From positions 1 through 44,033 of the forward strand of contig SVKE01000005.1 of the NCBI GenBank assembly GCA_015068615.1: 44,033 nucleotides of DNA. The letters are read 5' to 3'. The DNA is from Oscillospiraceae bacterium (GTDB taxonomy: Bacteria > Bacillota > Clostridia > UBA1381 > UBA9506). Numbering within the stretch: the first letter of the stretch is position 1; every line of letters starts with the position of its first letter. A program made the position numbers and the translations under genes. The notes under the pieces are model-generated. The model did no database searches. It had not been told where the DNA came from and saw only the letters and a program-made list of their open reading frames with translations. Below are positions 2,131 through 42,105 of this stretch, in pieces.

Positions 2131-2551
2131 GGGGCTGTAGCAAAATGCCCAGACCGCGCAAAGCATAAAAAGCCTATAGTAGCATATTGTAATTGGAAAG
2201 AAATTACAAGAATACAGTGATAAGTGGTAAAAATCGTTAAAAACGATTTTTAGATTAAAATGCTTTCCACTTCGAACAAACTTCACCTCTCGGGCGTCAA
2301 AACACGTCCTTTTGTTCGTTTTCTTTTTTAAAAGAAAACTTCACATAGACGGACGATTTTGCCTTTTCCTCAAAAGACAGATGTCTTTTGAGGGGAGGAA
2401 CAGTTGCGTTGGAAATGAGGGGGCGTTGTTAAACGCCCACGTTACAACCAATGCAAGCTGTGACGATGTACGCCTTCGGGACTCAGTTTGTCCAATCTGC
2501 GCTATTTTGCGTCCATCCCCAAAAGGGGCTGTAGCATTTTGCTACAGCCCC
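2131..2551 (+). repeat. Structured intergenic repeat, copy A (421 bp, extended form)
   Basis: Long non-coding repeat in the convergent gap between ilvE and the DMT transporter. It starts with GGGGCTGTAGCAAAATGC (2131-2148) and ends with the reverse complement inside a perfect hairpin (2525-2551). An inverted second copy is at 26524-26781. Reading plus-strand sense, it can form: stem P1 (2158-2166 with 2260-2268, one mismatch); inside it P2 (2187-2194 with 2202-2209) and P3 (2229-2238 with 2242-2251); then P4 (2276-2282 with 2485-2491) closing P5 (2293-2297 with 2470-2474); and the terminal hairpin. The loop of P5 carries about 165 extra bases absent from copy B. It may be a MITE-like mobile element or a structured RNA; no open frame in it looks real. 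Confidence 0.8.
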
Positions 2552-9807: not shown

Positions 9808-10437
9808 ATGAAAAACGTAACCTTATTTGATCATCCGCTCATTCAGCATAAAACGACCGTTTTGCGTCAAACCTCCACCACGAATAAGGAATTTCGTGAG
9901 CTCGTAGAGGAAATTACCATGCTGATGTGCTATGAGGCGCTTCGGGACCTGCCCTTAGAGGATGTGGAGATTGAAACGCCCATTAAAAAAACAACGCAGA
10001 AAATGATTCGCGGCAAGAAAATGGCTGTGGTTCCCATTTTGCGTGCCGGTCTGGGAATGGTAAACGGCATGCTAAATCTGGTGCCTTCTGCCAAGGTTGG
10101 ACACATCGGCATGTATCGTGACGAGGTCACCATGCAGCCGCAGGAATATTACTGCAAGCTGCCGGCTGATATTGACAAGCGCTTAATTGTCGTTGTCGAC
10201 CCCATGCTGGCAACCGGCGGTTCTGCCATTGATGCCATTGGCCAGATTAAGGCTTACGGCGGTCATCAGATTAAGTTTTTATGCCTGATTGCAGCACCCG
10301 AGGGCATTCAGGCACTATCTGAGGCGCATCCTGATATTGAAATTTACTGCGCTAATGTTGATGAGAAATTAAACGAAAATTGTTACATCGTGCCCGGCCT
10401 CGGCGATGCCGGCGACAGGCTCTTCGGCACGCAGTAA
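9808..10437 (+). CDS. upp: Uracil phosphoribosyltransferase
   Basis: Cytosolic salvage enzyme that makes UMP and pyrophosphate from uracil and PRPP. It has 209 residues, the normal length. The PRPP loop is [15 protein letters not shown] (residues 128-142). [14 protein letters not shown] (about 75-98) and the C-terminal [16 protein letters not shown] uracil-binding segment are intact. It lies 9 bases after uraA, with AGGAG overlapping the uraA stop, so import and phosphoribosylation are one unit. A strong terminator follows. Confidence 0.97.
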
Positions 10438-10464: not shown

Positions 10465-10497
10465 GGGGCTGTAGCATTTTGCTACAGCCCCCTTTTA
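10465..10497. terminator. Terminator between upp and the DUF1015 gene, identical to the hairpin of the A/B repeat
   Basis: Same 27-base palindrome as at 2525-2551: 11-bp stem GGGGCTGTAGC with a 5-base loop, A-rich before and T-rich after. It lies between two convergent genes, so it serves both. Confidence 0.85.
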
Positions 10498-10499
10498 TC

Positions 10500-11771
10500 T
10501 TATCTGATTTTTCTTGCTTCTGTATAAAACCTCTTATCGCAGGCCTCTCCCATGGAGAAGGTCTTTCGGGGAAGAGCGCCGTCTAAAATGACTGATTTAT
10601 ATAGGTCAGATTTATCCATGGCCGGAAGAACGATGCCGAAGTTCTTAGAATCCTCACATAGCCTATACACAACATCCTCACCATGAATGTAGTCAATCTC
10701 GCCGCCCAAGCGGGCCACATAGGCATCCAGAAAACTCTGCACGGTGGCAACGGTAAGGTATTCCTTCGGATTTGTTACCGTAACCTTTTTCGCCTCTCCG
10801 TTATAGACAAACACAAAGCTTTGACCCTCGGCATTTTCCTCATAGCTCAGCTCGTAGCTTTCCTCAAGCGCCCGCAAAAACTCTGCGCCATTTGCGCCGA
10901 ATACCACCCGGTGAATGGCCTCAAATTCCAAGGATGCATCATGGAGGTTTACCAGCTCACAGAGGGCGTATCGCGCCGCGGAGGCACGAGCCTTCTCAGC
11001 GCCGATTTCCTTCTTTAAATTTTCGTAGTACGATTTTGCGGTAGCCAGGGAGTGGTTGCCGTCACCCATTGCATAAATCAAAGGTGCGGTTTCCTGCACG
11101 CCGTATTTTTGATTAAAGCCGGCAAGATCATCCAGCGCTGCCAATTTTTCATCCAGGCGGTTGCAGGCCTCCTCCGACATTTTATAGCCGGTGATATGAC
11201 CGGAATCCTGCATCAGGTCAAAGTCATAGAGCTTGGTAAAGCCCTCTGTCATGGCAGCATTTGGTTCAATAATATCCCTGTCTGTATCATCAATCAAAAG
11301 CATGATGTGCGGCAGCTCTATCAAAGCCTCCTGACGCACCTTGAGTCGGGGCGGAATGCGGGAAACGACCGTGCCCTCGGTAGCCCGCACCTTCGTTTTG
11401 GAGCCCTTGCTGTAGTCATAGTCTTCAAGATCCACCACGCCTACAATACCCAGCCGCTTCACGCCCGATTGCAGCGTTCTTTGCACAAAAACATATGTAT
11501 TCTTATGCTCGGTAAAAACCTCCTCGGCCATGTACCGGGCCATGGTGCTGTTGGTTTTTTTGATTCGTGCCTCAATGTCCGGATCGTTTAAGTAAATTTC
11601 CGGCACCGTGAGGTGCAATGTGGATTCATCCTCTCCCACAAGCTCGGAAACCGCATTCCAATACGCCGGCTCGGAGGTGTACTGGTCACAGGCGACAATG
11701 CTCCATTTCTTCATTTTTTCACCGACCGATGCAAAATTCGGCAACAGGATATCTGCTCTTTGAAAGGTCAT
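10500..11771 (-). CDS. DUF1015 family protein
   Basis: A 423-residue soluble protein of the COG4198/DUF1015 family, whose biochemical role is not settled. Recognisable segments are WSIVACDQYTSEPAYW near residue 23, RLGIVGVVDLEDYDY near 110, the family hallmark APLIYAMGDGNHSLATAKSYY near 241, and a C-terminal part with PRKTFSMGEACDKRFYTEARK. The length fits the family. A GGATGAG site precedes the ATG and a good promoter lies at 11819-11847. Convergent with upp. The DGNH motif hints at metal or phosphate binding, which is only inference. Confidence 0.85.
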   Translation of the reverse strand: MTFQRADILLPNFASVGEKMKKWSIVACDQYTSEPAYWNAVSELVGEDESTLHLTVPEIYLNDPDIEARIKKTNSTMARYMAEEVFTEHKNTYVFVQRTLQSGVKRLGIVGVVDLEDYDYSKGSKTKVRATEGTVVSRIPPRLKVRQEALIELPHIMLLIDDTDRDIIEPNAAMTEGFTKLYDFDLMQDSGHITGYKMSEEACNRLDEKLAALDDLAGFNQKYGVQETAPLIYAMGDGNHSLATAKSYYENLKKEIGAEKARASAARYALCELVNLHDASLEFEAIHRVVFGANGAEFLRALEESYELSYEENAEGQSFVFVYNGEAKKVTVTNPKEYLTVATVQSFLDAYVARLGGEIDYIHGEDVVYRLCEDSKNFGIVLPAMDKSDLYKSVILDGALPRKTFSMGEACDKRFYTEARKIR

Positions 11772-26523: not shown

Positions 26524-26550
26524 GGGGCTGTAGCAAAATGCTACAGCCCC
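26524..26550. terminator. Terminal hairpin of repeat copy B
   Basis: 11-bp stem GGGGCTGTAGC with 5-base loop. It is followed by TTT on the plus strand (for the RluA gene) and by TTTAAGG on the minus strand (for serS). Confidence 0.65.
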
Positions 26551-26781
26551 TTTGGGGATGGACGCAAAATAGCGCAGATTGGACAAACTGAGTCCCGAAG
26601 GCGTACGTGGGTACGCCGAGAGGCGAAGTTTGTTCGAAGTGCAAAGCATTTTAATCTAATAAATCGTTTTAAAACGATTTATTACCACTTATAATTGTAT
26701 TCTTGTAATCTCTTTCCAATTACAATATATTATTACAGGCTTTTTATGCTTTGCACGGTCTGGGCATTTTGCTACAGCCCC
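26524..26781 (-). repeat. Structured intergenic repeat, copy B (258 bp, compact form)
   Basis: Inverted second copy of the element at 2131-2551. In minus-strand sense it begins with the 18-base terminus (26781-26764) and ends with the 27-base hairpin (26550-26524). P1 is a perfect 11-bp stem (26746-26756 with 26639-26649). P3 is a perfect palindrome (26658-26683). P4 is ACAAACT/AGTTTGT, and P5 is GGCGTAC/GTACGCC with a CCAC loop. Relative to copy A, P3 has an extra T in one arm balanced by an extra A in the other, and P2 has an A changed to G that still allows G-U pairing. It lies in sense orientation right after the serS stop codon (26790). Confidence 0.8.
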
Positions 26782-39879: not shown

Positions 39880-41076
39880 ATGATTAAGGTGGCCATAATG
39901 GGCTATGGAGTTGTCGGCTCCGGCGTCTACGAAGTGATTAGAAAAAATGAAAAGAGCATTGCAAAAAAAACCGGAGGCAAAACAATTACGGTTAAGCATA
40001 TTTTAGATTTGCGTGACTTTCCCGACCATGAGCAGCCGCAGCTTTTTACCAAAAGCTTTGAGGATATTGTAAACGACCCCGAGGTGGCGATTGTTGTAGA
40101 GGTAATGGGCGGTCTGACCCCGGCCTATGAATATTCAAAGGCGGCATTGCTCGCCGGCAAAAATGTTGTCACCTCCAATAAGGCATTGGTGGCAGAGCAT
40201 GGCACAGAGCTGATGCAAATCGCCAAGGAACAGAACGTAAACTATCTGTTTGAGGCCTCCGTTGGCGGCGGCATTCCCATTATTCGTCCTCTGAGCCAAT
40301 GCTTGGCGGCCAATGAGCTAGAAGAAATTTATGGCATTTTAAACGGAACCACCAACTTTATTTTAACAAAAATGATTACAGATGGAGCCGATTTTGAAGA
40401 GGCTCTTGCAGAGGCCCAGCGCTTAGGCTATGCAGAAAGAAATCCCGAGGCAGATGTCGAAGGATACGATGCCTGCCGCAAAATTGCAATTTTGGCATCA
40501 CTTGCCTCCGGTAAATATGTCAACTGGAGCACGATAGAAACAGAGGGCATCACCAAAATCACCCGTCGGGATGTTGCCTTTGCCGAAAAATTTCAGGCAG
40601 TGATTAAGCTGATTGGCCATGCGAAAATCACCGAGGACGAGAAGGTATATGCCAGAGTTTCGCCCATGCTGATTCCCAAGGGACATCAGCTGGCAGATGT
40701 AAATGGTGTGTTTAATGCCATTTTGGTTAAGGGCGATTCCATCGGCGATGTAATGTTTTATGGTCAGGGTGCGGGCAAGCTGCCCACGGCCAGCGCCGTT
40801 GTGGCAGATGTGATTGATGCTGCTAAGCACATTCATACCAATAAGCTGATTACCTGGAAGGAAGTAAAGGAGAACTTCATGGTAGACCCGGATACGGTGG
40901 TGGCTCGCTTCTTTGTTAAGGCAAACGCGGCCGAGGTTATGAAGGACTTCCCAGGAGCAGAGCCATTGGGTGATGAGGCCGGCACCTGGTACTTTGTGAC
41001 AGAAGCCATGCCGGAGGGTGAGTTTAAGAAAAAGCTAAACGGCCGCGGAGACTTTATCCGCGTGCTGGAAGGATAA
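39880..41076 (+). CDS. hom: Homoserine dehydrogenase
   Basis: NAD(P)H-dependent reduction of aspartate semialdehyde to homoserine, the branch point to Thr, Met and Ile. It has 398 residues. The Rossmann site is IMGYGVVGSGVYEVI (8-22). ASVGGGIPIIRPL, LNGTTNFILTKM and EAQRLGYAERNPEADVEGYDACRKIAILA are the catalytic signature segments with the Asp and Lys expected. A shortened C-terminal ACT-like region (about 325-398) suggests partial feedback control. GGGAGG precedes the ATG. Monocistronic, with its own terminator; no thrB or thrC adjoining. Confidence 0.95.
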   Translation: MIKVAIMGYGVVGSGVYEVIRKNEKSIAKKTGGKTITVKHILDLRDFPDHEQPQLFTKSFEDIVNDPEVAIVVEVMGGLTPAYEYSKAALLAGKNVVTSNKALVAEHGTELMQIAKEQNVNYLFEASVGGGIPIIRPLSQCLAANELEEIYGILNGTTNFILTKMITDGADFEEALAEAQRLGYAERNPEADVEGYDACRKIAILASLASGKYVNWSTIETEGITKITRRDVAFAEKFQAVIKLIGHAKITEDEKVYARVSPMLIPKGHQLADVNGVFNAILVKGDSIGDVMFYGQGAGKLPTASAVVADVIDAAKHIHTNKLITWKEVKENFMVDPDTVVARFFVKANAAEVMKDFPGAEPLGDEAGTWYFVTEAMPEGEFKKKLNGRGDFIRVLEG

Positions 41077-41088
41077 TAGAAAAACAGA

Positions 41089-41119
41089 GGGGCTGTAGCA
41101 AAATGCTACAGCCCTTTTT
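41089..41119. terminator. Terminator of hom, same hairpin as the A/B repeat
   Basis: GGGGCTGTAGC pairs with GCTACAGCCC over a 5-base loop, followed by five T. It lies between convergent hom and the DegV gene. The last C of the perfect palindrome is missing. Confidence 0.85.
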
Positions 41120-41149: not shown

Positions 41150-42022
41150 TTAATACCTGTTTTTCCCCAAATAGAAAATAGCCAGTGTGCCGGGGCCGGA
41201 ATGAGCACCGACGACGGGGTCGATGCAGTTCATCAGCGTGCCCTTAACAGAAAATTTCTCTAAAATCAGGCGGCGGACATATTCTGCATCCTCCTCGCAG
41301 TCACCATGAGCAATGTAAATCATTTGCTCCTCCGGGTTTTCCACGGTCTCTTCCATGTGCTTCACAAGAGCCTGCAGAGATTGCTTTCTGCCGCGAGCCT
41401 TTTCTACAACGGCAAGCTTGCCGTCATCATCCATATGCATAACGGGCTTTACCTGCAAAAGAGAGCCAAAAACCGCGGAGGTACTGGAAATGCGGCCGCC
41501 CCGCTTTAAAAAGAATAAATCATCGCAGGTGAACCAATGGCACATGCGCAGACGATTATCCGTCAGCCACTGCGCCACCTCCTCAATGGATTTTCCTTCT
41601 GCCTTAAGCTCTGTGGCATGATACACCAAAAGGCCTTGGCCGAGGCAGGCGCAGAGAGAGTCGACGGTGATAATTTTTCGCTCGGGATACTTCTCCTTTA
41701 AGCTGTCTGCCGCGATGGTAGAGGACTGGTAGGTGCCGCTTAAGCCGGAGGAAAAGCCAAGGTATAAAATATCCTGTCCCTCCTTCAAAAAGGGCTCAAA
41801 AAATTCGGTAAAGGCCTCGGGCGAAACCAGGCTGGTGGTGATGTGCTCCTTGTTGCGCATCATGGAATAGAATTGCTTTAAATCCGTTGCCTGTCCTTTT
41901 ACATAGCTTTTTAACTCCTTATCCCCTACATGAAATGTAAAGGATATGATAGCCACGCCGCATTGTTCAATTAATTCATCTGTCAGATTTGCCGAGGAAT
42001 CCGTTAGAATTACATAACTCAT
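41150..42022 (-). CDS. DegV family fatty-acid-binding protein
   Basis: A 290-residue soluble protein that binds a long-chain fatty acid; in Gram-positives such proteins (FakB) present it to the kinase FakA. The start MSYVILTDSSANLTDELI with the DSS motif is typical. ITTSLVSPEAF, LGFSSGLSGTYQSS, VDSLCACLGQGLLV and FFLKRGGRISSTSAVFGSLLQVKPV are the conserved ligand-pocket segments. It ends with AHSGPGTLAIFYLGK. The ATG at 42022 with GGAG upstream is preferred over a 22-codon extension that crosses the leader hairpin (42038-42054, GTCCGC/GCGGAC). No fakA nearby. Confidence 0.93.
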   Translation of the reverse strand: MSYVILTDSSANLTDELIEQCGVAIISFTFHVGDKELKSYVKGQATDLKQFYSMMRNKEHITTSLVSPEAFTEFFEPFLKEGQDILYLGFSSGLSGTYQSSTIAADSLKEKYPERKIITVDSLCACLGQGLLVYHATELKAEGKSIEEVAQWLTDNRLRMCHWFTCDDLFFLKRGGRISSTSAVFGSLLQVKPVMHMDDDGKLAVVEKARGRKQSLQALVKHMEETVENPEEQMIYIAHGDCEEDAEYVRRLILEKFSVKGTLMNCIDPVVGAHSGPGTLAIFYLGKNRY

Positions 42023-42105
42023 TGAAAACTCCGATCTGTCCGCAATAAGCGGACGGTTCTTATATTTATTAAAGCTATAAACTACCAAATCTAGTAACCA
42101 AAACT

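Follow-up and report, generated by a model that had tools for sequence, protein, structure and literature searches.

Short dispersed palindromes at gene ends are found in the REP/BIME repeats, which occur with RAYT (Y1) transposases. Other mobile elements are directed at terminators: for IS1272 and TnSha1, insertion at terminator hairpins is reported, accompanied by partial deletion but not by a target duplication (PMC4923244, PMC5678879), and sites between convergent genes are enriched for IS1182 (PMC9208149). Streptococcus pneumoniae has small folded repeats, BOX, RUP, and SPRITE, that are interspersed in its genome and enriched where genes converge. Of these, SPRITE is terminator-like and the ends of RUP are similar to those of an IS; the three are separate families found mainly in the pneumococcus and its close relatives (PMC3049150).

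The repeat described here occurs twice in the window, the whole stretch of 44,033 nucleotides that was analysed (contig SVKE01000005.1, assembly GCA_015068615.1). The host genome, G000, is an Oscillospiraceae MAG of 1.32 Mb in 74 contigs with a completeness of about 90%. Like REP/BIME, the element is a short dispersed repeat at gene ends, but its ends match IS1182; identity with REP/RAYT was rejected, as no match to a Y1 transposase was found in G000. With the IS1272/IS1182 family and TnSha1 it shares GGGGCTGTNGCAAAA-type ends, seen here in IS1182-family IS, and sites between convergent genes. Its location at hairpins and convergent gene ends is the counterpart of their insertion into terminator hairpins, a step that is presumed for the element itself. 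Unlike IS1272 and TnSha1, it has no transposase gene, its right end is a full hairpin, and its covarying body is found order-wide. BOX, RUP, and SPRITE are likened to it by description, whereas the element joins a body and a putative terminator in one unit that extends over an order.

The element is probably a non-autonomous, MITE-like mobile repeat of IS1182 type, with a putative terminator as its right end. As in MITEs, it is short and gene-less, with inverted ends, many dispersed copies, and a variable position. The original prediction had offered either a structured RNA domain at mRNA 3' ends or a MITE whose folding matters for mobility. The MITE option is the better supported one, with dispersed and tandem copies, absence at orthologous sites, IS1182-type ends, and compensatory stem changes. 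Copies A and B were correctly recognised as copies of one element with 18-base termini (Table 1). P3 of copy B is longer through matched changes in both arms, and P5 keeps GGCGT/ACGCC in both copies around a loop that is about 170 nt longer in copy A, as had been proposed.

Table 1. Coordinates of the two copies, their parts, and related stand-alone hairpins in the window.
Feature	Position	Strand	Remark
Copy A, long form	2131..2551	+	left end, folded body with extra ~170-nt domain, and terminal hairpin
Left terminal repeat of copy A, GGGGCTGTAGCAAAATGC	2131..2148	+	first 15 bases equal the ends of the IS1182-family IS L178
P2 arms 2156-2166 with 2260-2270, around P3 2229-2238 with 2242-2251	2156..2270	+	covariation
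P4 arms ~2274-2282 with 2484-2493, around P5 2293-2297 with 2470-2474	2274..2493	+	covariation
Extra domain inside P5 of copy A	2298..2469	+	closely matched by three copies in two sister species; looser counterparts in other genomes
Terminal hairpin of copy A, GGGGCTGTAGCATTTTGCTACAGCCCC followed by T6	2525..2551	.	right end, putative bidirectional terminator
Copy B, short form	26524..26781	-	
Left terminal repeat of copy B	26764..26781	-	
Terminal hairpin of copy B	26524..26550	.	
Stand-alone hairpin, same sequence as the element's terminal hairpin	10465..10491	.	between convergent ORFs 9808-10437(+) and 10500-11771(-)
Stand-alone hairpin, same family as the terminal hairpin	41089..41115	.	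between convergent ORFs 39880-41076(+) and 41150-42088(-)

In G000, the 421-nt copy A has about 20 relatives, full or partial, and the terminal 18-mer (at most 2 mismatches) occurred 77 times compared to 0 times for the reversed control, which is far more than chance would give. The search for further copies was also successful beyond the host. Of 61 related genomes, 38 contain matches to the short copy B, spread over 16 of 21 genera, and full-length homologues are present in four families of the host's order. Among 84,980 species genomes, an exact pattern was found in 43 stretches, all from MAGs labelled Clostridia or Oscillospiraceae; where the title states a source, it is the gut of sheep, goat, buffalo, water deer, or yak. 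No match to the element was found in the viral contigs, plasmids, and phages searched, and no relevant match in Rfam at the gathering score or in permissive searches. Among the papers searched, none described a named repeat of this kind. Tandem arrays of 4.1 x 215 bp, 2.2 x 220 bp, and 2.9 x 114 bp occurred in L127, L130, and L128, respectively. Two tandem units in C73 are 98.2% identical to each other and at most 94.7% to other full-length copies in G000, so local duplication is the simpler origin of the arrays and inverted-repeat replacement was rejected as first choice. Two 120-base copies at contig ends (L014, L015) match the C73 units at 98-100% and may belong to C73-like arrays.

G028, a genome of the same order, has an intact transposase gene of the IS1182 family that is flanked by GGGGCTGTAGCAAAAC and GGGGCTGTAGCAAAAT (L178). 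Its product was assigned to NF033551 with 392.8 bits (cutoff 270) and to Pfam DDE_Tnp_1_6. The first 15 bases of the element are identical to the ends of this IS. A transposase gene bounded by such ends, for which a search had been proposed, was found here, although in a different family of the order, and none was found in G000, where a search of the incomplete genome gave no match to the IS1182 transposase domain (PF13751). This domain occurred in only 2 of 20 genomes of the host's family. Full IS1182 membership is not claimed, because no cognate transposase was found in G000 and, in a MAG of this completeness, IS copies are easily lost in assembly.

Other IS1182-family elements across the class have ends of the form AAAAGGGGCTGT(N)(GC)AAAA or AAAAGGGGCTGTAAAAAAAGTCCC, with AAAAGGGGCTGTTGCAAAA and GGGGCTGTCGCA among the ends seen, and several of them sit beside or inside palindromes. 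The element itself carries two end types on the same core, with type a in 125 copies and type b, AAAAGGGGATGTAAAAAAAGTCC, in 14 copies by a strict rule, and the type b ends are close to the second IS1182 end type (L291/L292). Of all arguments, this parallel pairing of end types speaks most strongly for a link to IS1182. The AAAAGGGGATGTAAAAAAAGTCC-end subtype was seen in L112, L130 (6873-7143), L337, L343, L358, L365, L373, L374, L380, and L383, while L326, L322, and L349 show a possible third end type, GGGCTGTGATAAAACAGCACCGACC. At both ends of L178 (276-2108), the same subterminal hairpin AAAATGAGGAC...GTCCTCATTTT is present. Another IS1182-family element, L271, has a nearly identical complete hairpin CCGCCGCATT..AATGCGGCGG on both sides, as if a hairpin target had been duplicated and not replaced.

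Hairpins of the terminal type were counted as GGGGCTGTAGC-(3-6 nt)-GCTACAGCCCC with at most 2 mismatches per arm. This gave 61 complete hairpins in G000, 39 of which are solo, without an adjoining element. Both neighbours were called for 55 of them; 36 of these are flanked by convergent ORFs and 2 by divergent ones. On either side of 43 of the 61 hairpins, 3 or more of 5 bases are T. By these features, the hairpin right end of the element looks like a bidirectional terminator. One hairpin sequence is found at about 60 gene ends of G000, with paired arm changes of GAGG/CCTC and GGGGGTG/CACCCC. No long target duplication was found in the flanks of the element, where direct matching was slightly raised, at 2.77 of 8 vs 2.24±0.14 after shuffling.

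As described for IS1272 and TnSha1, an IS1182-family transposase would move the element into terminator hairpins at gene 3' ends. The right-end hairpin with T-tracts on both sides would then replace the destroyed terminator and make the insertion tolerable between convergent genes. The left arm of the hairpin is a direct repeat of the left end, and a deletion between the two would leave nothing but an intact hairpin and so account for the 39 solo ones. The covarying multi-stem module, in which P1b closes P2/P3 and P4/P5, lies between the two ends.

Neighbouring genes were called by a longest-ORF rule and not by a gene finder. Confident neighbours on both sides were available for 86 of 148 distinct copies; they are convergent for 57 copies and divergent for 0. 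In an earlier copy set, the gap between stop codon and element was mostly -2 to 15 nt. That copies A and B lie in sense orientation past ilvE and serS before a convergent gene had been noted as a feature of the element; the arrangement is uninformative, as between convergent genes either orientation is 'sense'. After ilvE or serS, the element was absent from all sister-species loci read, in a coarse comparison in which a few loci were read from the neighbouring ORF or run into another gene. Several of these loci carry unrelated terminators instead, with a AAAAAAGGGGCTGTAAAATAAC hairpin in G003 and elsewhere a AAAACCCCCAC hairpin. The comparison was made at the level of sister species, and no strain-level empty sites were seen.

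Selection for a structured 3' UTR element in the sense mRNAs of ilvE, serS, and further genes would agree with copies close behind stop codons and with the lean of co-directional copies towards sense, with 19 copies vs 10 in the other orientation. However, this lean is not significant (P=0.14), the position is not conserved in sister species, which leaves no link to ilvE or serS, and, as given below, the wobble asymmetry favours the opposite strand and P1 does not covary. This explanation is very improbable, and the originally proposed RNA domain at the 3' ends of mRNAs finds no support.

The fold was analysed in alignment A1 of 42 diverse copies, in which RNAalifold found 17 of 27 pairs changed on both sides. 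The named structure (P1b, P2, P3, P4, P5, and terminal hairpin) had 95.0% paired cells, and double changes occurred in 31 pairs and 156 cells, compared to 16.7±2.2 pairs and 36.2±6.9 cells in shuffles, a control that ignores the relatedness of the copies. Slid versions of the structure reached at most 13 pairs and 29 double-change cells, although this control leans in favour of the named structure, which was partly derived from the same alignment. The outer P1 as first drawn had 12 double-change cells vs 8.5±2.8 expected from shuffles. The elements of the predicted fold are present in both copies, and P2 to P5 and the terminal hairpin covary strongly, a result that is neutral as to the strand, but the outer P1 does not. 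Alone, the 3' terminus forms a complete hairpin, so that P1, a pairing between the 5' terminus and the far arm, is in competition with this hairpin; of the two, only the hairpin covaries. P1 is better read as a likeness between the terminal repeats, while the inner stems and the hairpin are conserved.

A folded sense RNA predicts more G.U than A.C among imperfect pairs. In the originally assigned sense orientation, P2, P4, and P5 together had 6 G.U vs 20 A.C cells, and on a tree of 135 copies there were 25 G.U vs 47 A.C origins (P=0.013, in a test devised after inspection of the data and with the three stems grouped by the analyst; P3 alone gave 16:16). Wobble origins in the terminal hairpin were symmetrical with 29:33. 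This pattern suggests that the folded strand, if there is a single one, is the reverse complement. Consensus folding energy of the unit was -20 kcal/mol in sense vs -36 kcal/mol in antisense, a gap in the alifold values that may partly reflect composition. Single-sequence folding energy was dropped as strand evidence, since composition accounts for the difference. The P4/P5 internal loop reads UC/UC in sense and GA/GA on the reverse strand, and only there can G.A pairs form. Together, the strand evidence moderately favours the reverse strand as the folded one, against a sense 3' UTR RNA, but does not separate RNA from single-stranded DNA.

In one copy, L013 (C29:100651), the right P4/P5 arm has been replaced by a perfect complement of its left counterpart. 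As a DNA-level event, it means that compensatory changes in repeats do not prove selection on RNA. It also lends some weight to the view that the repeat is inert and that its stems are conserved merely as a side effect of quasi-palindrome correction in the DNA. This view is nevertheless unlikely, because the letters of internal loops are also conserved over four families, a feature not predicted by the copying of arms, and because A.C and G.U are unequal.

A covarying internal fold across families is not usual for ordinary MITEs, and parasitism alone therefore leaves part of the observations unexplained. It is possible, if doubtful, that the core has a function as a structured RNA, or as a fold of single-stranded DNA specific to one strand, which is read from the reverse complement and spreads by means of IS1182-type ends. 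Five covarying helices, the conserved internal loop with its strand-specific G.A pairs, the excess of A.C origins, the lower antisense consensus energy, and the combination of one core with different ends and extra domains would agree with this. However, Rfam holds no match, no promoter or transcript is known, the energy differences are open to explanation by composition as stated above, and L013 shows that DNA template switching can produce paired changes. In its widest form, we only tentatively suggest an unrecorded, order-wide modular RNA or strand-specific DNA fold with short and long forms and an optional side hairpin, carried inside IS1182-type ends that transposon subtypes can exchange, and providing terminators for many convergent gene pairs of its hosts. 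As a probable MITE-like repeat, the element connects topics that are mostly treated separately: IS1182 transposition aimed at terminators, small intergenic repeats with a fold, and a genome with at least 61 terminator-like hairpins of one sequence. If its body has a job, it represents an undescribed structured family in many gut Clostridia; if it has none, it is a clear case against hastily reading covariation in repeats as a functional mRNA element.

The additional nucleotides of copy A are a second domain with homologues in other species and not a random loop. They were found in one copy in G006 and two copies in G008 at 75-79% identity, and long, dissimilar inserts occur at the same place in G017 (L379), L238, L233, and L165. 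The long-form sequences are too few for a covariation test. Besides copy A, the long form with a second domain inside P5 is represented by L338, L387, L398, L379, L238, L233, and L165, and the relatives of this domain diverge strongly between genera. In L128 (2046-2372) and L360, a form was seen that consists of the core alone (114 bp) and lacks both P3 and the usual ends; it is present in three tandem copies in L128.
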